Below are positions 15,685 through 37,747 of a stretch of 64,000 nucleotides of DNA, piece after piece. A program made the position numbers and the translations under genes. Below the pieces are notes generated by a model. The model saw only the letters and a program-made list of their open reading frames with translations, was not told the origin of the DNA and ran no database searches. Each line of letters starts with the position of its first letter. The stretch's first letter is position 1. Source of the stretch: Ensifer adhaerens (GTDB lineage Bacteria > Pseudomonadota > Alphaproteobacteria > Rhizobiales > Rhizobiaceae); assembly GCF_020035535.1 (NCBI RefSeq), contig NZ_CP083350.1, positions 62,001 to 126,000 on the forward strand, read 5' to 3'.

Positions 15685-18600
15685 TTAAAACATCTGAGCA
15701 ACCGTCTCGACGACCCGCGGCGTCGAGACACCTTGATTGCATTGGCGAGCTGGAAGGAGTGTGCGGCATTGCCGGACCAACGCCGCTTGGGCCGCCCCGT
15801 TCAACCGCCCGTCAAGTGGCCCGACGCGCACGCCGCTTTGGCGCAGCCGTATCTCGATCACATAGGCAAAAAGCTGGGGGTTCGTCCTCGACAAGTCACG
15901 CACGACCCGCTGACGTTCCGGTTGGGTGAGGGTCGTGAACCTGTTGCTGAGTGCCTCAAACGCGCTTGTTTTTGCCGTCGAGGCATCCAAAAGGAAGGTC
16001 TGAATGCTCATTTCCGGGCCGGAAAGCAGGTCTGCCGAAGCGGCCAAGGCCGACTTCGCCTTGGCGCTGTCCTTGCGTACAAGTTGCGTCCGACCGTCGC
16101 GCTTGCCGTCGCGATAGGCCTCGATCAAATCGATCGCTGCAATCCGATCCCCCTCTTTCGCGGCCTTCTGCAGGACTGAAACGGCCTCCTTGCTGCTGCG
16201 CGCCGCGCCCTGCCCGTAGAAGAGGGCCTCGGCGACGGCTGATGATGCACCGCCCACGTTTTCGTCAACGGAGCGTCGCAGCAGGACGACGCCTGCCGCC
16301 GCGGCCTTTCCGGTCTTTGTCGACGCATTGAAGCGGCCGAGTGCCAAGGAGGCACCCGGGTTCCCCGTTTCGAAAGCCATTTTGTAGTATTTTTCAGCTT
16401 GCTTCACATTGCGCGGAGCGAGACGACCGCTATTATAAGCGTCACCGAGCCTGAGCATTGCTGAGACGCTGCCCTTCGCCGCGGCGTCCTGATAGTATGT
16501 CAGGGCCAACTTCGGATCGAGCGCGGTTACTTGCCCTCCGCCATAAAGATCGCCAAGCGAAAGCAAGGCTGACGCCGACCCGTCTGCTGCCAGTGCTGTT
16601 AACGCGTGGACTGCCGAAGCGACGTCCTTGTTCATGCCTTGGCCTCGTGCCTCCATCTCGGCAAGACGTATCTTGGCGTCTACATCGCCCTGTTCTGCCG
16701 CCTGACGGTAGTGCTCGAGCGCAATGCCGTAGTCCGCTTTCACGTCCTGTCCCTCGACATAAAGATCGCCAAGGCGCAAATGCGCTCGAATAGATCCGAA
16801 CTGCGTTGCCTTTTCGAGCGCCGCCACAGCGAGGCTCGGCTGCAAGGGTATGCGACCGGAAAGGTACAGCTCAGCGAGCGCGACCAGGATGTCCGGACTT
16901 GCACTGGTCCCTAGCGCACGCAGTTCCGCCATCCCGCCAGATACGTCGCGTCCTGTCCCTTCGCCCCGTATCGTCAGTTCGGCGACGCGTAGCCGACCCT
17001 CCATGTTGCCCTGATCCGCGGCTGCGCCGTAGGACGCGAACGCCTTGGCCGGATCTTCCGCCCGATAGCCGTCGCCAAGCCGCAACATGGCTCGCACGCT
17101 GCCTTGCCCGGCAGCTTGTTGGTAGTATTGTCGCGCGCGCCCAGCATCAACCGGCACCGTTTGGCCCTTAGTATAAAGGTCTCCCAGCGAGTAAGCGGCG
17201 CCTGCTTCACCTTGCGCGGCGAGCATCGCCAATTCGCCCGTAGCAGACCCGGCGTCCGGAGCCATGCCACGACCGAGCGCCTTCATCTCCGCAAGCCGTA
17301 CCTTCGCCTCAAGGTTCCCTTGTCCCGCCGCCTGTCGATAGTGCTCGAGCGCAAGCGAATAGTTGAGTGCCACCGCGTCTCCAGCGGCGTATAGATCGCC
17401 AAGCCGCACATGCGCATCGACAGAACCGACATTTGCCGCACGCTCCAAGGCTGCAACGCCAAGTTCCGGCTGCATTGGCACGCGACCGGACAAGCAGAGG
17501 TCGGCCAGTGCTTCAAGCACGCTCGGGCTGTCACTTTTTGCGAGCAAGCGTAAATTCGCCACGCCTTGCGAAACATCCTGCAATGTCCCCTCGCCACGGA
17601 TCGTCAGCTCCGCAACCCGCAGGCTTCCATCCAGACTGCCCTGCTTTGCGGCTGCGCTGTAAGCGGCGAAGGCCTTGATTGGTTCGTGCGCTCGATAGGC
17701 ATCGCCGAGCCGCAGCAGTGCAGTCAAGCTTCCCTGTTTTGCTGCCTGTTCGTAGTAGCGGATTGCCTGGCCAGAATCGACGGGGATTGCGTCCGCGCGT
17801 CCATAGAGATCACCAAGGGCGAGCGCAGCGCTCGCTTCACCTCGGTCAGCAAGCGCCGCCAACTCGGACTTGGCCGCGTCCGCGTTCTGCGCACCGCCTT
17901 GCCCTCTGGCCTGCATCTCTGCAAGCCGTATCTTTGCCGCGACATTCCCCTGTTCTGCAGCGCGACGATAATAGCTTTGTGCGAGCGTGAAGTCTGTCGT
18001 GGCCGCCTGGCTTTCCGAGTAGAAGTCGCCGAGCCGCAGTAGTGCCGCGACGTTGCCTTGCGCTGCCGCCTGTCGGTAATAGTCCGCGGCTCGAGCGCGG
18101 TCCGCCGGCACGGCTTCGCCCTTGCTGTAAAGATCGCCGACGGCAAGCGACGCCTCGGCCCCTCCGCGCGCGGCAAGGTTGTCAAGCTCTATTTTCGCAG
18201 CGGAGAGGTCCTGTGGTATCCCTTTACCCTGCGCCCTCATTTCCGCGAGCCGAACCTTTGCCTCCAGATTCCCGCGCTCGGCTGCACGGCGATAGTGGTC
18301 GAAGGCAGTCGCAAAATCCGTCGTCACCCCTTTGCCGGCGAAATAGAGATCCCCCATTCGAACATTCGCCGTCGTGCTGCCCTGCGACGCGGCCTGGCGG
18401 AAATACTCTAGTGCCTGGGCAGGATCAGCCGGGACGACCTTGCCGTCGCTGTAGAGATCACCCAACGCCAGCGAAGCCTCCTGTCGGCCGGTCGCAGCAA
18501 GGCTCTTGAGCTCGGCCTGAGCGGATGCGAGGTCCTGCGTAACGCCAAGGCCGCGCGCCTTCATTTCCGCAAGCCGGACCTTCGCCTCCACGCTACCCTG

Positions 18601-21600: not shown

Positions 21601-22845
21601 CAAGGAGGCAGCGGCTTCTCCCGTACTGGCAAGCGAGATCAACTCCGTCGTCGCACTGGCGAGGTCCCGCGACATGCCGCGTCCTCTCGCCTTCATCTCT
21701 GCAAGCCGCACCCTTGCCCCGACATTGCCGGTCGCCGCAGCTTGGCGGTAACTTGCAACAGCTGGACCATAATCACCACTCACCGCCGCTTGATCCGCGT
21801 ACAGATCGCCAAGCTGCATTAGCGCCGTCCCACTACCATGGGCGGCGGCCTGACGGTAGTATTCCACCGCGCGGTGCCAATCCGCCGGGATGACATCGCC
21901 TTTGAGATAGAAACTTCCGAGCGAGAGGTCGGCGATTGGCGCACCGAGATCGGCCAGGGCCTGCAGTTCACCGATCGCTTGCTTCACATTGCGTGCCATC
22001 CCTTGACCGCGTGCCTGCATTTCTGCAAGCCGGACCTTCGCTTCCACATTCCCTTGTTCAGCGGCCAGGCGATAATGAACGACCGCCGCGGCGTAGTCAG
22101 TCGCCAGGACCGTTCCGGAATAATAAAGGTCTCCCAGCCTGACCTGCGCGCTTGTCGAGCCAAGAGCTGCGGCCTTGCGAAGCGCGGCAACAGCGATCTC
22201 CCCCTGCTCCGGGACGCGCCCGGATAGACAAAGATCAGCCAGTTGCTCAAGGACACCTGGATTGTCGGATCCGCCGACCGAGCGCAAGTTTGCCGCTCCT
22301 GCCGCCACGTCACGTTGCGTGCCTTCGCCGCGGATCAACAACTCCGCGACCCGCAACTGCCCAGCGACGACCCCTTGATTTGCCGCCTTGGTGTACGCGG
22401 CGAATGCCTTTGTGGGGTCATGCGCCACGAGTTCGCCACGACTGTAGAGATCTCCCAGGCCGATCAGCGCACCCCGATACCCATAGGCTGCCGCCCGTGA
22501 GTAGAGCTTGAGGACGCGGGCGCCGTCGGGAGCATCATTGACAACCTCACCTCCGGTTTTCGGCTGCGACACTGCTATGATCGCATCCGGCCCGGCGTTG
22601 CGCAGCAAGTCTTCATACTCCACGAACAGCCGATCGACGGTCGCGGCGTCGATCCGGCGTGCGAGGTAGAGATCAGCCAGTTGTGAGAGCGCTCGACCGA
22701 GGTTGGGCTGGAAAACCTGGTCTCCGTCAGACAGATCGGTTTGCGAATTAGGCAGATTTGCGGAGGTTTGTGGCGTAGCGGCTGACGCCGACCCCGCCCA
22801 AAGGAAGCCAACCGCGACAAGGCCGATCCATCCCGCTGAACGCAT
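15685..22845 (-). CDS. Giant exported Sel1-repeat protein with C-terminal peptidoglycan-binding-like segment
   Basis: A protein of 2386 residues. MRSAGWIGLVAVGFLWAG with ASA before ATPQ is a Sec signal peptide, so the protein is periplasmic or outer-membrane associated. Nearly all the rest is Sel1-type helical repeats of about 36 residues, roughly 60 in number, grouped in about 16 super-units of 108 residues. Each super-unit contains RLAEMKARGQG, LALGDLYSDG and DYARALDHYRQAA-like segments. Three divergent units carry LRVAELTIRGEGT. The last 60 or so residues (RLRQSGVRVGPLDGRLNGAA) resemble a peptidoglycan-binding-domain-like fold. The ATG at 22845 overlaps the deacetylase stop as TGATG. By analogy with AlgK in alginate export and BcsC/PelB in cellulose and Pel export, I infer a periplasmic scaffold for polysaccharide assembly. 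Confidence 0.88.
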   Translation of the reverse strand: MRSAGWIGLVAVGFLWAGSASAATPQTSANLPNSQTDLSDGDQVFQPNLGRALSQLADLYLARRIDAATVDRLFVEYEDLLRNAGPDAIIAVSQPKTGGEVVNDAPDGARVLKLYSRAAAYGYRGALIGLGDLYSRGELVAHDPTKAFAAYTKAANQGVVAGQLRVAELLIRGEGTQRDVAAGAANLRSVGGSDNPGVLEQLADLCLSGRVPEQGEIAVAALRKAAALGSTSAQVRLGDLYYSGTVLATDYAAAVVHYRLAAEQGNVEAKVRLAEMQARGQGMARNVKQAIGELQALADLGAPIADLSLGSFYLKGDVIPADWHRAVEYYRQAAAHGSGTALMQLGDLYADQAAVSGDYGPAVASYRQAAATGNVGARVRLAEMKARGRGMSRDLASATTELISLASTGEAAASLALGDLYGDGRALAIEPAKALIYYRQAAAQGSVTALLRLGEFHSEGELSRPEYGRALEYYRAAIERGSASAKVRLAEMEARGGGVAQDVASAKAKLEGLAAQGEGEASLILGDLYARGDVMPVDAAQAWLHYRRAADQGSVPALTRLGDLYSSNDTSKPDYTLAQDYYRRAVGRGSANAQVRLAEMEAHGQGTVQNVSLATRTLMSLAERGEPAAALTLGNLYYGGGVVRADPARAIGYYQQAAALGSTTALVRLGDLYAAQGALTGDYGTAIVSYEQAAARGNAGAKVRLSEMKARGRGTVQDISTAKAELDALAAAGEAGASLALGNLYSDGQAIPAEPARAVTYFQKAVAQGSVSALLRLGEFYSDGERSAADYGRAMEFFRKAAETGNVGAKVRVAEMKARGRGVPQDIASAKTDLEQLAAGGDADASLALGDLYGRGEVVAVDPHKALYWYQQAADVGSVTALLRLGDLYSQGQPTMVNYGLAQEFYRQAVGRGSVNAKIRLAEMQARGQGVAGDVATATRELAELAQRGETAAALALGDLYGRGEAVSADPTQGLQYYRQAATQGSMTAYLRLGDVYSAGRTSTTDYAAALDHYRRAASRGNSVAKVRLAEMKARGQGVAQDVASATSELTVLADGGEKAAAVALGELYSNGQVVSADPTRAAGYYRQAAELGSVEARVRLAEMKARGQGVAQNVSAATAELAALAKGGEASASLVLGDLYAEGKIVQSDPPVALKYYRQAISQGSSTAHLRLGNLYSAGGLFATDYAEAFEQYRQAAERGSNEAKIRLAEMTARGLGATQDVVSATRALTALADSGDTAAAISLGDLYGAGEVVPSDPVRALHYYRQAAEEGSVSALLRLGGYYSESESPVADFALAQNYYRQAAGQGSAEAAVRLAEMKARGQGVSRDVTSATQELAALAEQGEAAAALSLGELYRKGEVVKADPERTVDYYRQAAGRGSLTALLRLGELYSMSETTMTDYARARDFYRQAAGQGSVEAKVRLAEMKARGLGVTQDLASAQAELKSLAATGRQEASLALGDLYSDGKVVPADPAQALEYFRQAASQGSTTANVRMGDLYFAGKGVTTDFATAFDHYRRAAERGNLEAKVRLAEMRAQGKGIPQDLSAAKIELDNLAARGGAEASLAVGDLYSKGEAVPADRARAADYYRQAAAQGNVAALLRLGDFYSESQAATTDFTLAQSYYRRAAEQGNVAAKIRLAEMQARGQGGAQNADAAKSELAALADRGEASAALALGDLYGRADAIPVDSGQAIRYYEQAAKQGSLTALLRLGDAYRAHEPIKAFAAYSAAAKQGSLDGSLRVAELTIRGEGTLQDVSQGVANLRLLAKSDSPSVLEALADLCLSGRVPMQPELGVAALERAANVGSVDAHVRLGDLYAAGDAVALNYSLALEHYRQAAGQGNLEAKVRLAEMKALGRGMAPDAGSATGELAMLAAQGEAGAAYSLGDLYTKGQTVPVDAGRARQYYQQAAGQGSVRAMLRLGDGYRAEDPAKAFASYGAAADQGNMEGRLRVAELTIRGEGTGRDVSGGMAELRALGTSASPDILVALAELYLSGRIPLQPSLAVAALEKATQFGSIRAHLRLGDLYVEGQDVKADYGIALEHYRQAAEQGDVDAKIRLAEMEARGQGMNKDVASAVHALTALAADGSASALLSLGDLYGGGQVTALDPKLALTYYQDAAAKGSVSAMLRLGDAYNSGRLAPRNVKQAEKYYKMAFETGNPGASLALGRFNASTKTGKAAAAGVVLLRRSVDENVGGASSAVAEALFYGQGAARSSKEAVSVLQKAAKEGDRIAAIDLIEAYRDGKRDGRTQLVRKDSAKAKSALAASADLLSGPEMSIQTFLLDASTAKTSAFEALSNRFTTLTQPERQRVVRDLSRTNPQLFAYVIEIRLRQSGVRVGPLDGRLNGAAQAALVRQCRTLLPARQCNQGVSTPRVVETVAQMF

Positions 22846-23675
22846 CACCCCCCACTTTCTGACCCGGCCACCTGGCGTCGTGGAAACACCGACCGGTGCA
22901 AGGCACGCATGCGTCTTGCCGCACGCCATCCGGTGGCAATGAGGCGATCGACCGGTGGCGCGACGGGCAGTTGCGGCATCTCGATCAGATCCATGAGCGC
23001 GTCCGGTGTTACCTCACTGGTGACAACGATGCGAGACAGCGCAAAGAGATCTTCCGTCTGGCTACTCAGCGCATGGCGAACGCGGCAAGCCGCAAGGTAT
23101 CCTGCCTCTTGCGCAATGCGGCGTGTTTCGTTTGACGCGTAACCGTGGGGGTAGGCAAATGTGGTGACGGGAGCACCCAAACCGTCTTCCAGGGCCTTTT
23201 TGCTATCTCGAAGCTCCCTTGTAGCTTTTGCCCGCGAAAGCGTGTCAAGTTCCGGATGGCTCACGGAATGCGCGCCAATCTCGACACCTGCGCGTTGCAG
23301 ATCACGCAACGCGCCCCAGTCGAGCATCGGACGATTTCCCTCGCCAAGATCTGAAAGCCATCGAGCGGTCTTCCCTACAAATCCCGTGGCGACATAGAGG
23401 GTAGCGGCGAATTTGCGGGCGGCCAGAACAGGCAGTGCGGCTTCGGAAAAATCCCGAAGACCATCGTCGAAGGTGATCAAGCAGGTGCGCGGAGGAACCA
23501 ATTGTCCGCGGCTTCGCAACAACGCGAGGTCGGCAACCGTAATCGAGCGGTATCCGCGCTGCGACAAGGCACGTAGATGCGCGTCCAACTCCCGCTCGGT
23601 CACCATCCAGCGTCGATATGCCGGGGCACAATCACGACCGACACTATGATAGACCAAAATCGGGATAGATTGCAT
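22845..23675 (-). CDS. Polysaccharide deacetylase (NodB-homology, carbohydrate esterase family 4)
   Basis: A 276-residue metal-dependent deacetylase. Motif 1 TFDDG (Asp70, Asp71) and the His pair His136/His140 in HSVSH are both intact, followed by FAYPHG. It would remove N- or O-acetyl groups from a sugar polymer or lipid-linked precursor. No clear signal peptide is seen, so it may act on a cytoplasmic intermediate or be exported otherwise. The ATG at 23675 has AAAGAGG upstream and lies one base after the stop of the glycosyltransferase gene. It is coupled to the Sel1 gene downstream, which fits a role in the same polysaccharide pathway. Confidence 0.9.
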   Translation of the reverse strand: MQSIPILVYHSVGRDCAPAYRRWMVTERELDAHLRALSQRGYRSITVADLALLRSRGQLVPPRTCLITFDDGLRDFSEAALPVLAARKFAATLYVATGFVGKTARWLSDLGEGNRPMLDWGALRDLQRAGVEIGAHSVSHPELDTLSRAKATRELRDSKKALEDGLGAPVTTFAYPHGYASNETRRIAQEAGYLAACRVRHALSSQTEDLFALSRIVVTSEVTPDALMDLIEMPQLPVAPPVDRLIATGWRAARRMRALHRSVFPRRQVAGSESGG

Positions 23676-23676
23676 A

Positions 23677-25845
23677 TCACACCTCTTTTTGGGCTGGTCG
23701 CCTCGCGTCGAGGCCGCTGCGCGGCCGGTCGTCGCGCCTGCGCTTCGCGAGACTTCTAAAGTAGCCCGGGATTCCTGCGAGGATGCCGAGACGCTCCATC
23801 CAAATCAGCCGCAGCGGATAGTCACTGGGTAACCGGGCCGTCTTCTGCGAGGTTGGCCCCGCCATGTGGAGGATGCCCGCTGGAAATGCCTTGGCAAGTC
23901 GGAAAGCCCGACGCGGTTCGTCGACAATGATCTTCGTCAGGTAGGCACCTAGCCCCATGCCATAACAAAAAGCTTGGCGGCGCATGCCTTCTTCGCCCCG
24001 GCGGTGGTAATGCCAGACGATGCCCTGTGGCTGGTATACCAGCTGGAAACCGCCGCTTATGATCGCGAAGAATGCGGCGAGGTCATCGCCACCGCGCGCC
24101 AGCGTTCCAGCACCAAGCGCCGCATCGAAACCACCAACTCGACGCAACGCACTTGCTCGGAAAGCCATGTTTGCACCGGAGCCGAACTGACCGGCCGTGA
24201 AGGGAAAAAGCATGCCTTTTGGCCGGTTTTCCTCCAAATCATAGACGCGGCGCTGAAAGCCCTTGCCGAAACCACCGTGCTGTTCCGTCCAGACTTGCGC
24301 CCGGGTTTCGAGTTCGGCGGGCAGGATCAAGCCGGTCACGCAACCGACGGCATTGTCCTCCTCCATCGGCCCGGCCATCGCTTCGACCCAATGCTGGTCG
24401 AGTACAACGTCGTCATCGGTGAAGAGGACGATGTCACTCGACACGTAACGCAGGCCGGTATTGTGCGCTCGGCCGAGCCCCGGGGTCGGCTCAAGCACAT
24501 AATGCACCCGTCCCCGGTAACGCGCCGAAATCAGATCCACTGTTGCCGTCGACGCCGGTGCGTTGTCTACGACATGCACCTCGTCGGGTGCACGGGTTTG
24601 ATTGAAAAGAGACGCGAGGCAGCGATCCAGGCTTTCAGCACGGTCGCGTGTTGCTATCACAACAGCCACCTTTTCACGCACGGGGACAGGTCCGGCCGCG
24701 GTCGCCGGCAAAGAGCGATCGGGACCTATCCGCGACCGTAGGTCAGCGGGTTCAATGACAGGGCCAGAATGCTGAAGCTCGACAATCCGGAGCGGTTCTG
24801 GCCCGGAGCGAACCAAACAGAAGATACCACCATATCGCCCGCCATTCGGCCGCCGGAGATCGATCGCCGGAAGGGGTTTTGTGTGATCTACGCTGACAAT
24901 CTTGATGGGGTGGAACGGGTTCACTCGTCTGGAGAGTTTTGCCGCGAGATACGCTGCTGTCGTAAACATGAGCCCCGCAACGATGGCGAAAGCTCGGGCC
25001 GGTCCAAAGGGATCAAGCCGGGTCACCATATCACTCACGCCGCGCAGGACGCCTGCCGGCAACGTCCGGGTGACATAGGCACGCTCGGTGCCAAGTTCCT
25101 CGCTCGCCCCTTCAGTTCCGGCCACCGCATTTTTCGAGCGTCCCTCGGCCTGGCATCGCTTTCGGAAGTAGGCCCACCGCGTTCTTTCTGCGGTGACGTG
25201 ATGGTGAACAACCGCTTGGGGATCATAAAGGATCACAGCGTCGGGAAGATGCCGGCGCGCGCGAATACACAGTTCGGTTTCTTCGCATCCGGCGGCATCC
25301 TGTCCGCTGCGACCGAGACCCTCAAGAAAGCCGCCAACGACATCGAAAACCATCCGCCGAAACGACATATTGCAGCCGATCGGGTTGCGGACCGGGCTTA
25401 GCCTTGTCGGCAAGCCATCATAACTGCAACCAACCACCCACAGGAATTCTTCCGGGAACCACCGTGGTCGCCCGACTTGCCAAAGTGGCAATACCTTGCC
25501 GCCGACACCGATTACCTTCGGATCAGCATAATGTATCGCAAGCCGTTCCAGCCAATCAGCCTCAGCAATGGCGTCGTCGTCAAGAAATGCAACGACATCG
25601 CTCGGGAAAGCGGCGCGCACACCCGTGTTTCGCGCACCCGAAAGGCCGCGCGCCCCATCATTGGCGATTACCTCGACATCAGGGTAAGACGCCCGCATCG
25701 CACACAACAAGTCCTCGTTGTGGTCGATGACGATGACAAGCCGGTCGGCTTGCCGTGTCTGATTGAGTATCGAGTTGATAGCGTCGCCAAGTTGGAGGCG
25801 GCGCTCATCGGAATAAGCGCAGATCACAACCGCAATCGAATTCAT
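23677..25845 (-). CDS. Bifunctional glycosyltransferase, two fused GT2 domains
   Basis: A 722-residue protein with two GT-A glycosyltransferase family 2 domains. The first starts at SIAVVICAYSDERR and carries DDD in AFLDDDAIAEADW. The second starts near residue 395 (KVAVVIATRDRAESLDRCLA) and carries FTDDDVVLDQHW. A linker of about 130 residues with one hydrophobic segment (AFAIVAGLMFTTAAYLAAKL) separates them. Such double GT2 proteins add two successive sugars during assembly of a repeat unit or build alternating polymers. The ATG at 25845 has GAGG upstream and follows the previous stop by eight bases. Donor sugars are unknown. Confidence 0.87.
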   Translation of the reverse strand: MNSIAVVICAYSDERRLQLGDAINSILNQTRQADRLVIVIDHNEDLLCAMRASYPDVEVIANDGARGLSGARNTGVRAAFPSDVVAFLDDDAIAEADWLERLAIHYADPKVIGVGGKVLPLWQVGRPRWFPEEFLWVVGCSYDGLPTRLSPVRNPIGCNMSFRRMVFDVVGGFLEGLGRSGQDAAGCEETELCIRARRHLPDAVILYDPQAVVHHHVTAERTRWAYFRKRCQAEGRSKNAVAGTEGASEELGTERAYVTRTLPAGVLRGVSDMVTRLDPFGPARAFAIVAGLMFTTAAYLAAKLSRRVNPFHPIKIVSVDHTKPLPAIDLRRPNGGRYGGIFCLVRSGPEPLRIVELQHSGPVIEPADLRSRIGPDRSLPATAAGPVPVREKVAVVIATRDRAESLDRCLASLFNQTRAPDEVHVVDNAPASTATVDLISARYRGRVHYVLEPTPGLGRAHNTGLRYVSSDIVLFTDDDVVLDQHWVEAMAGPMEEDNAVGCVTGLILPAELETRAQVWTEQHGGFGKGFQRRVYDLEENRPKGMLFPFTAGQFGSGANMAFRASALRRVGGFDAALGAGTLARGGDDLAAFFAIISGGFQLVYQPQGIVWHYHRRGEEGMRRQAFCYGMGLGAYLTKIIVDEPRRAFRLAKAFPAGILHMAGPTSQKTARLPSDYPLRLIWMERLGILAGIPGYFRSLAKRRRDDRPRSGLDARRPAQKEV

Positions 25846-25853
25846 AACGGGCC

Positions 25854-27667: not shown

Positions 27668-27688
27668 CGACTGTATAAGGCGCGCGCC

Positions 27689-28684: not shown

Positions 28685-28913
28685 TCTTTCGAGTTCGCAT
28701 ACCGTTTCGAATAGATGTCTTCGCAATCGGTGAGGCATTCGCGGGCTCCAAGCATAGCCTGCCACTTCACTTTTTCGCGCCCAGTAAAGCACAAAATTGT
28801 GAGATTGCACGCCCCCCGACAGATCAATCTGAGGCATTTCATTTCCTGCTTAATCGTCCTATGCTTGCGAAAGCTATCGATAATGGACCAGAAGGAAGTG
28901 CTGGATCGACAGT

Positions 28914-30002
28914 ATGATTTCGGAGACGGCATTGACGCAACCGATCGGTCCAAACGCCTTTGGACACCTCATTCATTCCAGTGGGCCGGCTTCAGATGCC
29001 ATGTGGCTCAATCTCTATCAACACGACCGGGCGGCAGTCCCCAGCCAATCCCCGCGATGGGGACAGGCAGTCGCGGCCGCCGGCAACTACCGGTGTAACC
29101 CGCAAGACTTCCATTTCGCCGACGGCAGTCATGCCGTTCTGCCTCTGTTTACCAGGGGGGTCGCTTCTTTGCGCTACGCTTGGTCGCCGCCGCCGGCCTG
29201 GGGGTTTGGCGGGCTGCTTTCGGATGAGGAGATCTCGCCTGACAAGTTACGCTCCGTACTCGCTCATCTAGAGACATTGCCCTATGTCGGAGTGAAGGTC
29301 CGACCAAACCCTCTCAAAGAGCACGTTTGGGCAGAGGCAATGCGACCGGGCTGGGCATCCATTCCTCGCCTGGCGCATGTCATCGATCTGACCGGCGGCT
29401 TTGAAGCAGTAAAAGCGCGATTTCGGTCCAACGCAGGAACCAACATCAGACGTGCGCAAAAGTATGGCGTGGAGGTGGAAGCTGGCAACAGTGATCGATT
29501 GATCGACGAATTCCATGGCCTGCTCGAACTTTCCTTTGTGCGCTGGGCACGCAAACAGCATGAACCGGCTGCACTTGCTCGCTTCCGTGGGCTTCGCCGC
29601 GATCCTCGCTCGAAGTTCGCTACAATGGCCGCCAATCTGGGCGAGGGCTTTCGCCTCTATGTCGCCCGGCTTGGAGGCCGCCCCGTTGCTGCAATATTGG
29701 TGCTCATGCATCATCAAGCACATTATACGCGCGGCGCGATCGACGAGGGGCTCGCAGGCGAAAGCCGCGCCACGTATCTGCTTCAGGCCACGGCCATTGA
29801 AGAGGCCTGCCGGCTCGGCAGTACGCATTATCACATGGGTGAGACGGGGAATTCTGCCTCTCTCGCACAATTTAAATCTCGCTTCGGTGCAATCGCCATT
29901 CCCTATGCAGAGTATCGATATGAGCGCGTTCCGCTCGCAAGCATCGATAGTTTCGCCCGAAGTACCGTTAAACGCGTGGTAGGGTTTCGTGATGCGTCTT
30001 AG
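28914..30002 (+). CDS. FemAB/BioF2-like GNAT acyl- or aminoacyltransferase
   Basis: A 362-residue cytoplasmic protein with a C-terminal GNAT-like fold of the FemAB/BioF2 group: FRLYVARLGGRPVAAILVLM, then SRATYLLQATAIEEACRLGS and GETGNSASLAQFKSRFGA. FemAB-type proteins transfer acyl or aminoacyl groups, and relatives are standard companions of exopolysaccharide loci. It probably decorates a sugar precursor. It is a paralogue of the gene at 36668-37747, sharing the GNSASL...FK.RFGA motif. The gene overlaps the next by 11 bases. The start is supported only by a weak GGAT box; an ATG at 28999 is an alternative. Confidence 0.8.
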   Translation: MISETALTQPIGPNAFGHLIHSSGPASDAMWLNLYQHDRAAVPSQSPRWGQAVAAAGNYRCNPQDFHFADGSHAVLPLFTRGVASLRYAWSPPPAWGFGGLLSDEEISPDKLRSVLAHLETLPYVGVKVRPNPLKEHVWAEAMRPGWASIPRLAHVIDLTGGFEAVKARFRSNAGTNIRRAQKYGVEVEAGNSDRLIDEFHGLLELSFVRWARKQHEPAALARFRGLRRDPRSKFATMAANLGEGFRLYVARLGGRPVAAILVLMHHQAHYTRGAIDEGLAGESRATYLLQATAIEEACRLGSTHYHMGETGNSASLAQFKSRFGAIAIPYAEYRYERVPLASIDSFARSTVKRVVGFRDAS

Positions 30003-30834
30003 CCGATCGGTTGCCATCGCCGGCATCTTTCTGTCCATCTTTCTACCGTTTTCGGCGGCGCGCGCCGACGGGCCGGTTCCGATCGCCGAAAAGGGCTCAT
30101 GGCGACTCGTGTTCGGGGATGACTTCGACGGCCGCCAGCTTGACCGGGACAAGTGGACGACTTGTTATTGGTGGAACAAGGACGGCTGCACTAATCTCGG
30201 CAATGCCGAACTGCAATGGTACCGGCCCGAAAACGTCTCGCTTTCCGACGGCCATCTCCGCCTGACTGCCCGACGACAAAAGGCCAAGGGGATTGAAGGG
30301 CGCACATTCGATTACACCTCCGGTATCGTCACCACAGGGCGTGACTACGACGAATTGCCTCGGCCATCGCGCGTGCGGTTTCGCTATGGGCACGTCGAGG
30401 TCAAAGCCAAAGTCCCAGCGGGCAAGGGATTCTGGGCTGCGATATGGCTCCTGCCCGAGAGCCGAGAATCCCGACCGGAGATTGACCTCATGGAGGTTCT
30501 TGGAGATTCTGCCTCCACGCTGCGGATGCACTATCATTACGTCGACGCAGCCTTGGAGAAAAAAAGCGTCGGAAAGGATGTTGAGACGGCAGACTTGTCG
30601 GCGGGTTGGCACGTCTACAGCCTCACCTGGGACCCGGATAAGATCATCTGGTACCTCGACGGCAAGGAGGTTTGGCGCCAAACCGACGCCGCAGCGATAT
30701 CCAGCGAAGAGATGTATCTGCTCCTAAACTTGGCAGTTGGGGGTGAGTGGGCGGGCTCCCCGCCCAAGTCTACGAAGTTTCCCTCGCAATACCTCATCGA
30801 CTACGTACGAATCTGGCAACGGGACGACGGCTGA
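29992..30834 (+). CDS. Glycoside hydrolase family 16 (secreted beta-glucanase-like)
   Basis: A 280-residue enzyme with a signal peptide (MRLSRSVAIAGIFLSIFLPF, cleavage after ARA) and the GH16 catalytic signature EIDLMEVLG. Glu163 is the likely nucleophile, Asp165 assists and Glu168 is the acid/base. The C-terminal beta-jelly-roll strands end with YLIDYVRIWQ as in the family. It would cleave beta-1,3/1,4-linked glucans in the periplasm or outside, most likely trimming the polymer made by this locus, as ExoK does for succinoglycan. The ATG at 29992 is preferred over the GTG at 29989. Confidence 0.92.
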   Translation: MRLSRSVAIAGIFLSIFLPFSAARADGPVPIAEKGSWRLVFGDDFDGRQLDRDKWTTCYWWNKDGCTNLGNAELQWYRPENVSLSDGHLRLTARRQKAKGIEGRTFDYTSGIVTTGRDYDELPRPSRVRFRYGHVEVKAKVPAGKGFWAAIWLLPESRESRPEIDLMEVLGDSASTLRMHYHYVDAALEKKSVGKDVETADLSAGWHVYSLTWDPDKIIWYLDGKEVWRQTDAAAISSEEMYLLLNLAVGGEWAGSPPKSTKFPSQYLIDYVRIWQRDDG

Positions 30835-33356
30835 TGTTGCAACGCAAAGACCACAACACCGCCAACTTCGTGTCCCGAATTTCACGTGCGTATCCGGCAA
30901 TAGCGGCCCTCGCCCACTCGTCGCTTTTGAAAAACGGTTACGCGCTGGTCGCGAGCGCCGGGCTCACATCGGCACTTGGACTCGTTTTCTGGGGGCTGGC
31001 ATCACGCTTTTATACCCCCGAGCAAGTGGGACTGGGCGCCGCGCTTATCTCTACCATGCTGGCGCTTGGGAATATTTCGCAACTCAACATGGGCAATTTT
31101 TTGAACCGCTACCTGCCTGCCACCGGGCAGAATGGCGCTGTTCGGCTAGTGCTTTGGGCCTATACATTGGCCGCCGCTGCGGCGGCTCTTCTTTCCACGC
31201 TTGCCATTATGTTCATCTCCCGCCTCACCCCAGAGCTGGGTTTCCTGAGCGAGCAACCCGTCGCGGCTGCCGCCTTCGTGGTCGCAACGGTCGCATGGAC
31301 GCTCTTTGCCCTCCAAGACAGTGTCCTTGCGGGCTTGCGTCGCGCGACCGTTGTCCCCGTTGAAAACGCGGTGTTCGCTGTCGCCAAGCTGCTGCTGCTG
31401 ACGCTTTTTGCGGGTTCCTCCATCTTAGGCGCGGGGCTCTACGCAGCGTGGGTATTGCCACTTCCGCTCTTGTTGGCCGGCATCAATTGGTTGATTTTCT
31501 TTCGCTTTCTTCCCCAACACCGAATCAATGGTGACACCGAGAGAGCTGACCGCCGAGCACTCACCCGCTATTTTGGTTGGGACTATCTGGGGACCCTCGC
31601 TTCGATGACGGCAATGGGAACAGCGCCACTCGTGGTCCTCCACTATGGCGGCTCGGCCAATCTGGCGGTCTATTATATTTGCTGGGAGATCGTTTACGGG
31701 GTCTACCTCATCAGTCGTTCGATGGGCATCTCCCTCTTGGCAGAGATTGCATTCGACAAGACGAAGTTGCATCGGCTCGCGGTCGATGCACTAATTTATA
31801 CCATTGCACCGTTGGCGGGCGTTGTATTCTTGCTCATTCTTGCTGCACCGCTGCTCCTGTCCGTGCTTGGAATGGAAGTTTCGGCTGCAAATTCTACGCT
31901 GCTGCGGCTGCTTGCCATCTCATGCCTGCCTTGGAGCCTTGTCACGCTCATGCTTGCCGTCGCCCGTGCGACAGGTCAAACGCAGATCGTCGCGCTAGCT
32001 CAAGTGGTAACGTTGGCCATTGTGCTTGGCCTTGGCACTCCGCTTGTCGTCATCCATGGCGCGGTCGGGATGGCAGCAGCGTGGCTTGTTGCCCATAGCA
32101 TCACCGCTGCGGGCCTGTTGGCTGACCTTTCGCACCGGCTCGGGCCAGCTGGCAGGATTGATCTCACGTTGCGCTTGCTGTCGTCGCTGGCGCGGCTGTG
32201 GAGCAATCTCCGGCCCCGACGCCATTCGTCGCCGCCGCTTCAGGCGTCAATTGCAAGCTTCTGTGCTGCGACCGGGCTCGAAATGCCGGATCCGCAAACG
32301 GTGCAAGAATTCTACCGGGAGAGCGATGTGCGGACAGGCATGTTCCGTACGGCCCGCCCGCCCGCCGAACTCCTTGTCTTCAAGGCGTCGACCTCACCAG
32401 AGGGACACAGGGCGGTCACTCGACACATCAAAAGGAGCCAGGAGTTAGCCGCCAACCCCGCGCTTGCTCAACTTGATTTCGCGGTATCCACGATCGTTGC
32501 GAGCTCCATTGATTCATCGGGAGCCAGGCTCGCAGAACGCGCCCTGCCGGGCGAAGACGGACGTTCGATCTTTGCCAAGTCCGAACAGTATATTCCGGCT
32601 CTCGCCCAGTCGATAAACGCCATCCACGTCATGCACTCGCGTACAGCGGCAAAGCGGATCATCAACGACGATTGGCTAGAACGCTGGCTCGATTTTGGAG
32701 CCGAAACCGTACGCGCGTCGCGCTCACCTTTGCTGGGCGAGCCAGCACGCGCTGATGCGCTCGCCATTTTTCGACAACAGCAATACCAGTTCTGGCACGG
32801 CCGCTCCCTGTCTCTCGGCCTCGGGCACGGTGACTTCGCTCCTGGAAACTTGCTTTTTACGAACGGGCCAGGTGATGCAGATGTTCGCCTGAGCGCAGTC
32901 ATTGACTGGGAGACCGCCACCCAAGACACCCCTCCAGGCCTTGATGCCATGTTCTTGTTGCTGACGGCACGCGCAGCGCGCAGTGGTGAAGATCTGGGAT
33001 TTGTTGTCCGCCGGGTTTTGGAAACACCGCTTCTGTCGCCCGATGAATTGACAGGAATGGCACCGTTGAATGCTGCACTGGAGGAGAGCTACGGTGCCCT
33101 ATCTGACCCAGCGGTCTTGCGCGCATTGTGCGGGCTGGCCTGGTGGCATCATGTTGCAACCAATCTCACCAAATCAGCCTGCTTTGCTGACAAGGCGTTG
33201 TGGCTCGCAGTCAACATCGACCTCGTCTTGGCCTGGTACGGCGGAAAGGTGACCGCAGCACCGCACTCGCTTGCGATCGGCTGCCTCCGGCGACAAAGGA
33301 GCCGCCCAAGTGTGACGAGCTCCGAACCTGTCTCCGTTGCCACAAGGAAGGGCTAG
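30834..33356 (+). CDS. Flippase-kinase fusion: Wzx/MATE-type exporter with C-terminal phosphotransferase domain
   Basis: An 840-residue fusion. Residues 1 to about 440 contain some 12 hydrophobic segments with the pattern of polysaccharide flippases (ASRFYTPEQVGLGAALISTM). About residues 490-810 are soluble and contain LGHGDFAPGNLLF and VIDWETA, the catalytic loop (HGDxxxxN) and metal-binding Asp of the aminoglycoside/choline phosphotransferase (APH) fold. The ATG at 30834 overlaps the GH16 stop as TGATG. The flippase half would move lipid-linked oligosaccharide across the inner membrane. The kinase-like half may phosphorylate the glycan or its lipid, or sense it. Key kinase residues look intact. 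I know of no standard exopolysaccharide gene with this architecture. Confidence 0.83.
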   Translation: MLQRKDHNTANFVSRISRAYPAIAALAHSSLLKNGYALVASAGLTSALGLVFWGLASRFYTPEQVGLGAALISTMLALGNISQLNMGNFLNRYLPATGQNGAVRLVLWAYTLAAAAAALLSTLAIMFISRLTPELGFLSEQPVAAAAFVVATVAWTLFALQDSVLAGLRRATVVPVENAVFAVAKLLLLTLFAGSSILGAGLYAAWVLPLPLLLAGINWLIFFRFLPQHRINGDTERADRRALTRYFGWDYLGTLASMTAMGTAPLVVLHYGGSANLAVYYICWEIVYGVYLISRSMGISLLAEIAFDKTKLHRLAVDALIYTIAPLAGVVFLLILAAPLLLSVLGMEVSAANSTLLRLLAISCLPWSLVTLMLAVARATGQTQIVALAQVVTLAIVLGLGTPLVVIHGAVGMAAAWLVAHSITAAGLLADLSHRLGPAGRIDLTLRLLSSLARLWSNLRPRRHSSPPLQASIASFCAATGLEMPDPQTVQEFYRESDVRTGMFRTARPPAELLVFKASTSPEGHRAVTRHIKRSQELAANPALAQLDFAVSTIVASSIDSSGARLAERALPGEDGRSIFAKSEQYIPALAQSINAIHVMHSRTAAKRIINDDWLERWLDFGAETVRASRSPLLGEPARADALAIFRQQQYQFWHGRSLSLGLGHGDFAPGNLLFTNGPGDADVRLSAVIDWETATQDTPPGLDAMFLLLTARAARSGEDLGFVVRRVLETPLLSPDELTGMAPLNAALEESYGALSDPAVLRALCGLAWWHHVATNLTKSACFADKALWLAVNIDLVLAWYGGKVTAAPHSLAIGCLRRQRSRPSVTSSEPVSVATRKG

Positions 33357-33360
33357 AAGT

Positions 33361-35235
33361 ATGACCGTCCTTGCTAACGTCGAAGACATTGCCTCCAACA
33401 CAGGAGTGGAAGCAGTATCGCGACGGCCTGCCGGGCGATATGATGTGGCCCTGACCGCTATACTCTCCGCGACACTCCTTCTCTGGACGGTGTCGCTGCC
33501 TGCGATAGACCCCGACCGCATGACCGACGTCGGGTTGGTATCGGTTCTGCCACGAAGCTTTTTTCTTTCACTAACGTTGCTTGCAGCCGGTTTTGCCTGG
33601 TTGGTTTGCGGGGGACGAACGCGCGGCCCGTTGCCCATTCTCTATCTGATGACGCTGGTTATTATCCTGCACGGTACGCCGCCGATCGTGTACGGAACGT
33701 TGCGTTATTCTTGGGCCTGGAAGCATCTGGGCGTTATCGATTACATACAACGTTATGATGCCGTTGACCGAAATGCGTCATTTCTTGCAGCCTATCACAA
33801 TTGGCCTGGGCTTTTCGCGGCAACAGCTTGGCTTGCCGACCGCTTCGGCCTGAGATCAGTCGATCTCGCGCCAATTGTGAGTTTTACCCCACCTGTCCTG
33901 ACGCTCGGCCTTGTCGGAGCGTTCCTGCAAGTGGTCAAAAGACTGTCGGCGGACCGCCGCCTTCAACTGACGGCCTGCTGGTTATTCGTCGCAGCCAACT
34001 GGGTGGGCCAGGATTACTTCTCGCCCCAAGGCGTCACATTTCTTTGTTACCTCATTCTCATCGGTCTGTTTCTTGGCCCACTGCGCAAAAACGAAACAAC
34101 ATGGGCGGCGCGAAGACCTCGCTTTCTGAATGTGCTCGGCCCGCCCGCACTGCCCGGCGGCCTGCCGTCTTGGACGGGTGGTCGGTTAACCCGTGCGCTT
34201 TCGGCCCTGCTCGCCATGACACTTATTTCCGTCATCGTGGTCACGCATCAGTTGACGCCTCTCATGATTATCCTTGCCGCGGCAGCTTTAACCGTGCTCG
34301 GATGGCTTTCGCCCGCCTATCTGATCTTTGCTATCATCACTGAAGTCTTGTGGCTTCTCTGGCCCGCGGCCCCTTTCGTCTACGAACAAATATTGAGCGA
34401 ACTGGCCAGCATGGGGACCCTTGCTGAAGCGACGAGCAAGCTGGCGAACGTGGCCGACGTGAGTGCCGATCGTGCTTGGGTCGTCCTGTTCGGGCGCGCG
34501 CTGTCGGCAGGTGTCATTGTCTTTGCGCTTCTGGGCGGATTGCGCCGGCTGCTGAATGGTCACTGGGACCTCACTGCCGCAGCACTCCTGCTCTCACCAA
34601 TGCCGCTTATCGCCGTAGCGTATGGCGGAGAGTCGATTTTCCGTGTTTATCTCTTCGCATCGCCCTTCCTCGCCTTCTTCGCCGCCACAGCGTTCTTTCC
34701 GTCAGCGCGGGCGGGGACCCCGGCTTATGTCTTTGCACCACTTGCCGCTATTCTCTTACTTTCAACCGTCGGCTTCCTGTTTGCGAACAACGGCAAGGAT
34801 CGCGAGTACCGCTTTGCGCAGGATGAGGTCGCGGTGGCTGAATGGCTCTACCGTTCGGCTCCGGAAGATACACTCCTCATCGAGGGCTCGCGTAGCTACC
34901 CCTCGCAGTTCATGAACTACGAAAACTTCTACTATTTGGCGATCGCACTGGAATCCGAAGCCACTCGAAAAGAAATCATCGCCAACCCGTCCAGTGTCTT
35001 TTTGCGCTGGATGGACAATCCACGCTGGCGCGACGCCTATGTAATTTTGACGCGCAGCCAGAAGGCCTCCCTGGAGGCCAACGGGCAAATGCGGCCGGGT
35101 GACTTCGATCGCATCGAGCAAGATTTACTTATGTCGTCTCGTTTCAAGCTGGTGCGGGCATCCGCGAATGCGAAAATTTTTCGGCTCCTGCCCGCGACGG
35201 CCGATGGTAGTGCCCTTGGTAATCGGTATCACTAG
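33361..35235 (+). CDS. Polytopic membrane protein, GT-C glycosyltransferase or polysaccharide polymerase-like
   Basis: A 624-residue protein with about 12 hydrophobic segments and a soluble C-terminal part from about residue 485. The first periplasmic loop contains YIQRYDAVDRNASFLAAYHN followed by WPGLFAATAWLADRFG, an arrangement seen in GT-C transferases and O-antigen polymerase-like proteins. In a locus with a flippase but no other candidate, it is the best guess for the polymerase or a lipid-linked-sugar-dependent transferase. The ATG at 33361 is preceded by AAGGAAGGG, four bases after the flippase-kinase stop. I cannot assign a precise family. Confidence 0.72.
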   Translation: MTVLANVEDIASNTGVEAVSRRPAGRYDVALTAILSATLLLWTVSLPAIDPDRMTDVGLVSVLPRSFFLSLTLLAAGFAWLVCGGRTRGPLPILYLMTLVIILHGTPPIVYGTLRYSWAWKHLGVIDYIQRYDAVDRNASFLAAYHNWPGLFAATAWLADRFGLRSVDLAPIVSFTPPVLTLGLVGAFLQVVKRLSADRRLQLTACWLFVAANWVGQDYFSPQGVTFLCYLILIGLFLGPLRKNETTWAARRPRFLNVLGPPALPGGLPSWTGGRLTRALSALLAMTLISVIVVTHQLTPLMIILAAAALTVLGWLSPAYLIFAIITEVLWLLWPAAPFVYEQILSELASMGTLAEATSKLANVADVSADRAWVVLFGRALSAGVIVFALLGGLRRLLNGHWDLTAAALLLSPMPLIAVAYGGESIFRVYLFASPFLAFFAATAFFPSARAGTPAYVFAPLAAILLLSTVGFLFANNGKDREYRFAQDEVAVAEWLYRSAPEDTLLIEGSRSYPSQFMNYENFYYLAIALESEATRKEIIANPSSVFLRWMDNPRWRDAYVILTRSQKASLEANGQMRPGDFDRIEQDLLMSSRFKLVRASANAKIFRLLPATADGSALGNRYH

Positions 35236-35327: not shown

Positions 35328-36266
35328 CTATCGCCGATCCGGCGCCAGCAACTGTGCCAATCCAACGCGAAGATCCGTTCGGCATCGATAGTCGAGCGCC
35401 TCTTGAAATGCCCGCACGCACCCTTGGGATCGCCTAACTTCGCCGAGCAGGCCGTCGACGTAGTCGATACCGCAACCAGATTTCGTCTCTTCGATCATTA
35501 TTCGTGCGAGATCATTAATCGACGTCTCTACACCACTGCAAACGTTCAAGACCCGGGCACCAACGGGAGGGCGCTCCACCGAGCGGATAAGCGCTTCAAC
35601 CACATCTTCGACGTAAACGAAATCGCGTGTCTGCGTGCCGTCGCCATAGATCACGATATTTTCGTCTCTGCTCAGCCTTTGCGCAAACTTGGTGATCACC
35701 CCAGAATAGGGCGACCGCGGATCCTGGCCCGGCCCGAAGACGTTGAAGAAACGAAGGCCTGTCGTCGAAATGCCGTAGACTTCATAGGCAGCGCGGGCGT
35801 GCAACTCGCATGAGAATTTGTCGGCACCGTAGGGTGACAGAGGAACGCACCTTCCCTCTTCAGAAAGCGGCAGGCTTTGGCTGGCCCCATAGACGGCGGC
35901 CGAAGAGGCATAGACAAGCGGCTGCTTGGTACCGGAATTCGCAATTGCCTCAACGAGGTTTAAGAACCCGGTTATGTTGACTGCATGAGAAGACGTTAGT
36001 TGCTGGTTGCACCTTTCGACCGAAGCGACCGCCGCCAAGTGGATACAGGCATCAACCAAGGCAAGCGCCTCACGAACGGCCTCCATATCCAGTACAGAGC
36101 CTTTGATGAAGGTGGCGGCCGGGGGTACATTGTCCTGCTTTCCTGAGCTTAGATCGTCTAGGACCACAACCTGACGACCAGTTTCCAACAATCGCCGCGC
36201 GAGATGCGCACCAATGAACCCGGCTCCGCCGGTCACCAAGATCGTTTCGAAGCCGTTTCCACTCAT
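35328..36266 (-). CDS. NAD-dependent nucleotide-sugar epimerase/dehydratase (UDP-glucose 4-epimerase-like)
   Basis: A 312-residue extended short-chain dehydrogenase. It has GGAGFIG at 13-19 for NAD binding, catalytic Tyr146 and Lys150 in YGADK, and FNVFGPGQDPRSPYSGVI in the substrate loop. The closest recognisable types are UDP-glucose/UDP-N-acetylglucosamine 4-epimerases. It would supply UDP-galactose or UDP-GalNAc for the locus. It is convergent with the polytopic protein gene and probably transcribed from its own promoter in the AT-rich gap upstream. Confidence 0.88.
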   Translation of the reverse strand: MSGNGFETILVTGGAGFIGAHLARRLLETGRQVVVLDDLSSGKQDNVPPAATFIKGSVLDMEAVREALALVDACIHLAAVASVERCNQQLTSSHAVNITGFLNLVEAIANSGTKQPLVYASSAAVYGASQSLPLSEEGRCVPLSPYGADKFSCELHARAAYEVYGISTTGLRFFNVFGPGQDPRSPYSGVITKFAQRLSRDENIVIYGDGTQTRDFVYVEDVVEALIRSVERPPVGARVLNVCSGVETSINDLARIMIEETKSGCGIDYVDGLLGEVRRSQGCVRAFQEALDYRCRTDLRVGLAQLLAPDRR

Positions 36267-36667
36267 GACATTTCGTCCCGGCTAGAGTTGTCCAGACACA
36301 ATGCAAAGCAAGAGCACACACACGAGCCAATGGAAACGGGCAGCGCCGCTGCTGGCCGCCAGGTGACCGAAACTCGTTACACGTCAGCTCAATCCTTTAT
36401 TCTCGCGGTCGTGCAGTCAAGCCACTGATGTCCGTAGGCGTTCTCCACCCGTGAGAAGACACAACGCCGGCGAGATTATGGGCAGGGGGGGCCTTTTCAT
36501 AAATTAAAACATGCGTAATATATATAATGCCTAAGTTTACCCAACCGCAAAGACTTCCGGGCTGTTAGTTTATTCGCTGGCCGTTCCTCTACGTCAGACC
36601 TCGCATCAGATATTTGAATTATTTGAATTTCTCGATCTTAAGAGTCCAATTTTCTTGTGTAGGGCCA
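36267..36667. other. Gene-free divergent promoter region
   Basis: About 400 bases between the epimerase and the second FemAB-like gene, with an AT-rich segment around 36495-36545 that contains a TATAAT (36523-36528) on the plus strand. It lacks a well-spaced -35 box, so I do not call a promoter. No protein gene is seen. Confidence 0.45.
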
Positions 36668-37747
36668 ATGCAATACACTCCTGATGATCGGATTACGTCA
36701 ACTATTTGCTACCGGGTCACCAGCCCTGCGCCGCGTGACGCCTGGAAGCAATTGATGACGCGTGACCACGAGGCGATGCCCTATCAATCGCCGGAGTGGA
36801 ACAAGGCGATTTGCGCTGAGGGCAAGTTCAAAGATATCAGCCGCTACTACGTATTCGAAGACGGTTGCCAGGTTATAGTTCCGCTCGTAACCACGACGGC
36901 CATAGGTCCGGTGGACCTTGTTGCGGGTTCTTATCCCGATGGTTGCGGAATGGGAGGGGCGGTGTGCTGCGACAACACAGCCATCCGCCACCTCAGGGAG
37001 GTACTGAAGGACCTCATGGCATTGCGTTTCCTCAGCATTCGGGTCAGGCCGAACCCTTTGCAGGGTAAACGGTGGTCCGAAGCGGCGCACGGCCTGGGTC
37101 TGATGATGAAACCGCGCCGTGCCCATGTGATCGATCTGAAGGAAGGGTTCGACCACGTCTATGGCAAGCTCTTCACCAAAGCGACAAGGGTCAGTATTCG
37201 CAAAGCCGAGCGAGAGGCCGTCATCGTAAAAAGCAGCAGCAACGGCGAACTAATCCCCCTCCTTCACAACTTGCTTGAGAGGTCCGTCAAGCGGTGGGCT
37301 GAACAGCAAAACGAACCGCTCTGGCTAGCGAAGTTCCGCTTTGGCAGGCGAGATCCCATCAAAAAGCTCTATCAAATCCAGGAGGCGCTCGGTGCGAACT
37401 GCAAGGTCTGGGCAGCATGGGTGAATGGGCAACCGGTCGCGGCATCCCTCGTTTTGATGGGAAGAAACGTGAATGACGCCCGGGGCGCAATCGACCGAGT
37501 TGCATTGGGAACGTCTCGCGCCAACGATCTTCTCCAAAAACTCTCAATCGAAGACGCGTGTCGGACGGGCTGTCGTTACTATCACCTCGGCGAGAGCGGC
37601 AATTCGGCATCGCTTTCACATTTCAAGGAGCGTTTCGGAGCGACGCACTACGATTACTCCGAGATATTTATCGAGCGGCTCCCGATTTCTCAGGCCGAAA
37701 AACTACTCAAGTCGGGCGTTAAGAGAGCGATCGGCTTCAAGGACTGA
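36668..37747 (+). CDS. FemAB/BioF2-like GNAT acyl- or aminoacyltransferase (second copy)
   Basis: A 359-residue protein with the same FemAB/BioF2-like GNAT architecture as the gene at 28914: KVWAAWVNGQPVAASLVLMG, then SRANDLLQKLSIEDACRTG and GESGNSASLSHFKERFGA. The two proteins share motif order over their whole length but are well diverged, so they may act on different sugars of one repeat unit. The ATG at 36668 is preceded by AGGG; a start 54 bases upstream has no ribosome-binding site. It stands alone, flanked by long gene-free regions. Confidence 0.8.
   Translation: MQYTPDDRITSTICYRVTSPAPRDAWKQLMTRDHEAMPYQSPEWNKAICAEGKFKDISRYYVFEDGCQVIVPLVTTTAIGPVDLVAGSYPDGCGMGGAVCCDNTAIRHLREVLKDLMALRFLSIRVRPNPLQGKRWSEAAHGLGLMMKPRRAHVIDLKEGFDHVYGKLFTKATRVSIRKAEREAVIVKSSSNGELIPLLHNLLERSVKRWAEQQNEPLWLAKFRFGRRDPIKKLYQIQEALGANCKVWAAWVNGQPVAASLVLMGRNVNDARGAIDRVALGTSRANDLLQKLSIEDACRTGCRYYHLGESGNSASLSHFKERFGATHYDYSEIFIERLPISQAEKLLKSGVKRAIGFKD

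Follow-up and report, generated by a model that had tools for sequence, protein, structure and literature searches.

According to an extract of PMC9943897, the usual classification of how bacteria assemble exopolysaccharides distinguishes Wzx/Wzy, ABC-transporter, and synthase routes. In this study, we analyzed a 64,000-nucleotide stretch of Ensifer adhaerens DNA (contig NZ_CP083350.1, positions 62,001 to 126,000; hereafter the window), in which two operons and several separate genes at window positions 15685-37747 encode family 2 glycosyltransferases (GT2), a polysaccharide deacetylase, a giant Sel1-repeat protein, a POTRA protein, a GH16 enzyme, a flippase fused to a kinase, FemAB-like transferases, and a polytopic membrane glycosyltransferase of GT-C type (Pol). 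With moderate confidence, we regard this locus as an undescribed pathway for an envelope glycan that relies on a flippase, with the POTRA protein sitting on the GT-C enzyme and the Sel1 protein serving as a periplasmic scaffold. The preliminary description of this DNA had proposed that the genes form one apparently undescribed system, and this was borne out: the same families recur jointly in other genomes, so their grouping is more than chance. Among the matches listed in the open-licence literature, no description of this gene set was found.

Wzx/Wzy exopolysaccharide pathways, such as those for succinoglycan, Sphingomonas promonan, and Pseudomonas Pap, share with our locus a lipid-linked oligosaccharide, a MOP flippase, periplasmic assembly, and GH16 or deacetylase accessories. 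They differ in that our block has no sugar-phosphate primer, Wzy_C, Wzc, or Wza, and carries a GT-C enzyme in the place of Wzy; in extracts of PMC11340318 and PMC7716237, the promonan cluster includes Wza and Wzz/CapB, and Pap has a tyrosine kinase and an outer-membrane protein as its exporter. Haloarchaeal Agl N-glycosylation and the Haloarcula AepG exopolysaccharide have the same DPM/AglJ-like loading of a lipid monophosphate, an AglG-like GT2, and a GT-C enzyme of oligosaccharyltransferase (OST) fold, whereas the present locus is bacterial and has a kinase-flippase fusion, deacetylase, GH16, POTRA, and Sel1, with a Pol that lacks a sequence match to solved structures. The Caulobacter holdfast system, which uses Wza/Wzc-type export, resembles the block in having a deacetylase (HfsH) and a FemAB-like modifier (HfsK), although the block deacetylase scores weakly against HfsH (37 bits; cut-off, 400). 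TamA and BamA of the Omp85 family share three POTRA domains with our POTRA protein, whereas the latter has no beta-barrel, ends in two C-terminal helices, and is fused to an inner-membrane glycosyltransferase in one relative (G794). AlgK-type proteins of synthase-dependent export, as in alginate, are likewise periplasmic Sel1/TPR scaffolds, whereas the Sel1 protein of the block is far larger, no barrel partner was found in the block, and the synthesis route is different.

Conservation and taxonomic split

A profile built from 32 flippase-kinase proteins, run against a single genome of each species, yielded 48 loci, ten of them alphaproteobacterial (L008-L014 and L016-L018). These, an E. adhaerens plasmid, three further plasmids, two genomes, and the window make up a set of 17 alphaproteobacterial strains (the window, L006-L014, L016-L018, G395 with L067/L068, G794 with L069/L070, L079, and L081), in which L006/G392, L011/G397, and L012/G797 were each counted once as the same strain, and the two S. 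fredii strains, L007 and L013, have identical profile scores. Ten families were recounted with home-made profiles (E 1e-8): the DPM/AglJ-like GT2 (GT2c), both halves of the double GT2, deacetylase, FemAB, GH16, flippase, Pol, POTRA, and Sel1. The block is present, whole or in part, in all 17 strains, with every family found in 11 and the eight-family core complete in 12; POTRA occurs in 17/17 (as two broken pieces in L079) and Sel1 at the loci of 13. Sel1, POTRA, and flippase-kinase genes, which the preliminary description had suggested seeking together elsewhere, thus do recur together. The GT2 operon is absent from the sequence scanned in L012 and L018, and in L079 (a plasmid of Rhizobium sp. 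RCAM05350) the block is broken into many open reading frames (ORFs) over several genes, reflecting either decay or sequencing errors.

Pol was detected in 4/16 genomes of the genus, 3/397 of the order, 1/387 of the class, and 1/398 of the phylum, and in the last two samples the single match is the genome that holds the window. Since the best three (Pol) or five (POTRA) candidates were scored per genome, the figures for order, class, and phylum are lower bounds. Full-length POTRA was found in 3/394 genomes of the order sample, the same three that carry Pol, and the 20 other matches to its profile are partial and lie inside ORFs of 640-708 residues. At the scale of whole genomes, full-length POTRA is present in 14/14 alphaproteobacterial rows (G397 and G405 being one genome) versus 0/7 actinobacterial or chloroflexal genomes. 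Pol itself extends well beyond the alphaproteobacteria, occurring in 12/60 genomes of the class of a Nocardioides genome (G412, reference included) and in 28 of the 29 non-alphaproteobacterial loci that were recounted (L100 and L102 belong to one genome; L015, L033, L097, L107, and L108 are shorter than 12 kb). Neither POTRA nor Sel1 was found at any of these 28 Pol loci, two of which are labelled Acidobacteria. The flippase profile matched 27 of them, mostly in the flippase half only by score, and deacetylase and FemAB occurred in ten and three, respectively. Kinase, deacetylase, GH16, and FemAB are mainly found in the closest relatives, namely Nocardioides, Dietzia, Acidimicrobiia, and Chloroflexi. 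Actinobacteria and most Chloroflexi have no outer membrane.

A Pol tree of 38 rows was rooted at the midpoint (L007, L079, L081, and L025 were not included, and L015 was removed by a 350-residue length filter). The 14 alphaproteobacterial rows fall on one side of a branch with support of 100/100 and adjoin Nocardioides (91/81, unstarred), and a wider group (100/99) unites the alphaproteobacteria with Nocardioides, Dietzia, Acidimicrobiia, and one Chloroflexi row. Because the root is a midpoint, the direction of transfer can only be inferred.

The proposed pathway and its parts

Our observations cover which genes are present, how they are conserved and fused, their domain matches and predicted folds, and the taxonomic split; every biochemical step outlined below is inferred from them, as are the product and any outer-membrane exit. 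The AglJ/DPM-like GT2 would place a sugar on a polyprenyl monophosphate, and the two halves of the double GT2 would add two more, one perhaps a uronic acid. The lipid-linked oligosaccharide may then be modified in the cytoplasm by the deacetylase, the FemAB-like transferase, and the APH kinase before the flippase carries it across the membrane. In the periplasm, the OST-fold GT-C enzyme would polymerize the oligosaccharide or transfer it to an acceptor, and the exported GH16 enzyme would trim or transglycosylate the polymer. A POTRA protein with its anchor next to the GT-C enzyme could help guide the product into the envelope in alphaproteobacteria.

The front end is suggested by the likeness of the GT2 proteins to haloarchaeal AglJ and AglG, which points to priming on a lipid monophosphate. 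In extracts of PMC9943897, Haloferax AglJ puts the first sugar on dolichol phosphate, and AglG adds glucuronic acid to glucose-charged dolichol phosphate. Since the scores of GT2c and the double GT2 lie below the curated cut-offs, we treat these relations as kinship, not identity; similar AglJ/AglG-like scores were obtained in Nocardioides and another actinobacterium, with an AglJ-like match in a third. On this kinship, GT2c is predicted to load the first sugar onto a polyprenyl monophosphate carrier. The deacetylase retains its TFDD and HSVSH motifs and, having no signal peptide as judged by eye, is predicted to be cytoplasmic. GH16 has a signal peptide (by eye) and an intact catalytic EIDLME motif, conserved in 13/13 sequences, which suggests a polymer product. 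Pfam matched only the kinase half of the flippase-kinase protein, with no flippase family in the window protein, and APH kinase motifs were found by regular expression in 26/32 such sequences. As in a Wzx/Wzy pathway, a Wzx-type flippase is nevertheless recognizable through homologues, some of which match PF01943 and some of which are annotated as "O-antigen/teichoic acid export membrane protein". ManC-like mannose-1-phosphate guanylyltransferase/isomerase genes lie near two blocks (L012, 722-2266, minus strand; L069, 11360-12799, plus strand), a hint of GDP-mannose use.

Pol gave no Pfam or NCBIfam match at E 0.01 and no sequence match to solved structures in the PDB. Its structure model has a GT-C fold with a C-terminal globular domain and is closest in fold to oligosaccharyltransferases (GT66). 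The "polymerase-like" protein of the preliminary description is present as a polytopic protein; a Wzy-type polymerase (PF04932) was rejected, given the GT-C fold and the absence of a Wzy_C match. D135 is invariant in a 31-row alignment but falls outside the columns that reach 85% conservation over 38 rows, which do include H304, E432, and R436; a first-loop catalytic acid of GT-C type with strict conservation was thus not confirmed. The Pol homologues P0099, P0101, and P0103 carry about 210 extra N-terminal residues with no match to any block protein.

The POTRA protein has a signal peptide (by eye), and its true start is probably downstream of the ORF start, as the first ~50 residues are unconserved. 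Its structure model and fold matches, in which TamA and BamA score within 1 Z of each other, indicate three POTRA domains at about residues 77-316, followed by two helices (326-347 and 352-381) predicted to be transmembrane, with no C-terminal beta-barrel. All 14 aligned POTRA proteins end in a short tail that looks hydrophobic by eye. A role as an outer-membrane porin or secretion barrel was accordingly rejected, and the model predicts an inner-membrane-anchored protein rather than a pore. This predicted anchor, together with a fusion to Pol in one relative, makes POTRA look like a partner of Pol.

With a home-made profile, 35 repeats were counted in the Sel1 protein, which also has an N-terminal signal or anchor helix (by eye). 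Its C-terminal region, conserved in 7/10 aligned Sel1 proteins or pieces, is presumably similar to PG_binding_1, a likeness that is not a Pfam match. It may be a periplasmic scaffold tethered at the inner membrane, perhaps bound to peptidoglycan, that guides the product into the envelope with POTRA. In L067 (8501-13131; G395), two separate Sel1 proteins, sited between the epimerase and Pol, replace the single giant.

Natural fusions tie the parts of the block together. Of 19 homologues selected because their length or domains were atypical, ten were flippase-Pol, two flippase-APH-deacetylase (P0064 and P0067), and three flippase-GT2 fusions, the remainder comprising one flippase only and three Pol proteins with an unmatched N-terminal extension; L105 has a flippase-GT2-Pol fusion. 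In G794, one ORF joins Pol (26-621) to POTRA (630-929, tail included; E 1.8e-29), and a second joins deacetylase to Sel1, both without internal stops and both from this one genome. The POTRA match starts beyond the signal peptide, at profile position 59, and lies behind the predicted periplasmic C-terminal domain of Pol; a hydrophobic segment separates the deacetylase from Sel1. Both arrangements fit the predicted topology. Distribution and fusions support the earlier suggestion that POTRA and Sel1 may form a trans-envelope route: both were found only at loci of alphaproteobacteria, which have an outer membrane, as such a role would predict. What has changed is the place of POTRA, which has a predicted inner-membrane anchor and in one relative is fused to Pol.

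Export and competing explanations

No match to Wza (Poly_export) was found in the window, as the preliminary description had stated; the five matches in the genome all lie elsewhere. No Wzc was found among the block proteins in Pfam and NCBIfam scans, with no genome search aimed at Wzc, and no sugar-phosphate primer (PHPT) was found among the block genes or identified recurrent neighbours. The block proteins likewise include no cyclic di-GMP (c-di-GMP)-controlled processive synthase with an outer-membrane porin, with no search for AlgE/BcsC-type porins made in the window or genome and none for the synthase in the genome. Families recurring outside the block in at least three alphaproteobacterial neighbourhoods were ABC importers, regulators, ManC-like proteins, DAO-like enzymes, the small ORF, and antisense frames, none of them Wza, Wzc, Wzy_C, or a primer.

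Several observations weigh against an undescribed flippase-dependent pathway in which POTRA and Sel1 serve as proposed. The block itself encodes no outer-membrane exit, and Wza genes occur in 14/14 rows of cluster-bearing alphaproteobacterial genomes and 0/7 of the other genomes. Sel1 was not found in 4/17 strains (L010, L012, L017, and L018, the last a 14-kb contig). FemAB is missing near the block in G395, as are flippase and FemAB in G794, from which both the POTRA and the Sel1 fusion come, and the hydrophobic segment of the deacetylase-Sel1 fusion is weak (mean Kyte-Doolittle [KD] value, 1.29). The 28 non-alphaproteobacterial loci often lack the kinase half, deacetylase, GH16, and FemAB, so the shared centre consists only of the GT2s, flippase, and Pol. 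Two Acidobacteria-labelled contigs (L033 and L042), nominally diderm, have a partial core without POTRA or Sel1, although the L033 Pol is very close to actinobacterial rows and a binning error is possible. A WWDYG-like motif (WW[DE][YWNF]) was present in 0/38 and 0/120 sequences, so that by motif Pol does not belong to the oligosaccharyltransferases.

A more far-reaching version of this reading, which we offer tentatively, holds that the locus is a distinct bacterial way of assembling envelope polysaccharide, defined by polyprenyl-monophosphate priming by AglJ/AglG-like enzymes, an often kinase-fused flippase, and polymerization by an OST-fold GT-C enzyme. Such a route, common in Actinobacteria, could have entered the alphaproteobacteria in a single acquisition and there have gained a POTRA co-polymerase and a giant Sel1 scaffold, which would move the product in the direction of the outer membrane with no need of Wza/Wzc.

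Alternatively, a Wzx/Wzy-like exopolysaccharide pathway could borrow a distant Wza/Wzc exporter, for example from UPP-like or succinoglycan-like loci, with POTRA and Sel1 as accessories; we consider this rather unlikely. The Wza distribution given above agrees with it, as do the genome's five Poly_export genes and the three Wzc-type proteins at their loci. L062 has Wza with Wzc, Wzy_C, and a primer and is what we take to be a UPP-like locus. The presumably succinoglycan-like region of L063 and L064 has Wza, Wzy_C, a flippase, an ExoP-type Wzc, and an ExoY-type primer, with a further Wza gene in L064. In L065, Wza adjoins a 2501-residue ORF that may be kin to rkpA, and L066 has Wza with Wzc and a primer. 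Five Wza, three Wzc-type proteins, and three primers are thus encoded outside the window, where the preliminary description had regarded a complete Wza/Wzc or porin set serving this locus as evidence against its proposal; that evidence is present in part, as any of these exporters may serve the locus. The three Wza loci that hold a sugar-phosphate primer look like pathways of their own, and Wzy_C proteins, to which Pol has no match, stand at two of the genome's Wza loci. No Wza lies near the block in the 14 rows, the nearest on the contig of POTRA being ~72 kb away (G392). Co-occurrence with Wza was rejected as a test of dependence, because Wza is near its ceiling in the order (57/61 genomes) and hence uninformative.

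We judge it improbable that the locus is a glycoprotein or glycoconjugate system, in which, by analogy with the Agl N-glycosylation of haloarchaea, the OST-fold enzyme would transfer the whole oligosaccharide from its lipid to envelope proteins in one step. The AglJ- and AglG-like GT2s and the OST-like fold parallel AglJ-AglG-AglB, and extracts of PMC9943897 place such genes beside an aglB homologue in Haloarcula, but the same extracts assign the DPM-like gene of that archaeal cluster to exopolysaccharide, not S-layer glycans. Pol also lacks both the motif and a sequence match to solved structures, and the intact GH16 motif suggests a polymer. That separate known pathways merely lie side by side, as might be argued from the variable epimerase and second FemAB and from L010, which has no deacetylase, FemAB, GH16, or Sel1 on its whole 45.6-kb contig, is very improbable: the conservation of the block across families speaks against it, and the fusions of its members largely refute it.

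Gene inventory and wider meaning

The locus lies on contig 2 of an 8.1-Mb genome of three contigs. The closest plasmid DNA compared was the Ensifer adhaerens CTYH.Ch1 megaplasmid (~81% identity over window 15.7-27.0 kb and 27.7-35.2 kb). All genes named in the preliminary description were confirmed at their positions.

Table 1. Genes of the locus in window coordinates
Feature	Position	Strand	Evidence
Giant Sel1-repeat protein, 2414 residues	15685..22929	-	PF08238 1.1e-160
Polysaccharide deacetylase	22845..23675	-	PF01522 4.5e-27
Double GT2	23677..25947	-	NF041394 AglG 2.7e-77 (N half); TIGR03965 6.8e-47 (C half, MftF-like); both below curated cut-offs
DPM/AglJ-like GT2 (GT2c)	25854..26645	-	TIGR04182 AglJ 9.9e-33, below cut-off; Dol-P-Man synthase 5mlz 1.5e-18
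Small conserved ORF, 101 residues, accessory	27362..27667	+	Identity to ORFs in L011 74%, L006 74%, L067 60%
POTRA protein	27689..28837	-	PF07244 7.9e-7
FemAB/GNAT-like transferase 1	28914..30002	+	PF13480 9.5e-12
GH16 enzyme	29989..30834	+	PF00722 4.6e-22
Wzx/MOP-type flippase fused to APH-type kinase	30747..33356	+	PF01636 1.3e-14 (kinase half); homologues (flippase half)
Pol, polytopic GT-C membrane glycosyltransferase	33337..35235	+	Predicted fold
GalE/TviC-like nucleotide-sugar epimerase, accessory	35328..36266	-	PF01370 2.6e-58; TIGR01179 2.1e-44, below cut-off
FemAB/GNAT-like transferase 2 (FemAB2), accessory	36614..37747	+	PF13480 1.9e-5

Within both operons, neighbouring genes overlap or lie 1 bp apart; the POTRA, epimerase, and FemAB2 genes are separated from them. 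The small ORF, which has no Pfam match, is held in a 1043-bp gap (48% GC) between the GT2 operon and the POTRA gene. FemAB2 shares 41% identity with the first FemAB-like transferase. The epimerase and FemAB2 keep their positions in the Ensifer relatives L006 and L011; both are variable and were rejected as core parts and classed as accessory. An Rfam scan of the window gave no RNA family at the gathering threshold. Directly downstream of FemAB2 lie two LuxR-type response regulators and a histidine kinase (38318-38989, plus; 39229-39894, minus; 39887-41437, minus), possible regulators of the locus. Further on are a large animal haem peroxidase/RTX protein, an ABC transporter, and a second RTX/cadherin-like protein (41767-49542, 49631-51382, and 51422-54358, all plus), which look like a type I secretion group.

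A pathway with another transferase class and probably another lipid chemistry, common to actinobacteria, chloroflexi, and some rhizobia, would widen the three-route scheme of exopolysaccharide assembly. The same core with and without an outer membrane amounts to a natural experiment, one that points to the parts a diderm must add and renders POTRA and Sel1 directly testable.

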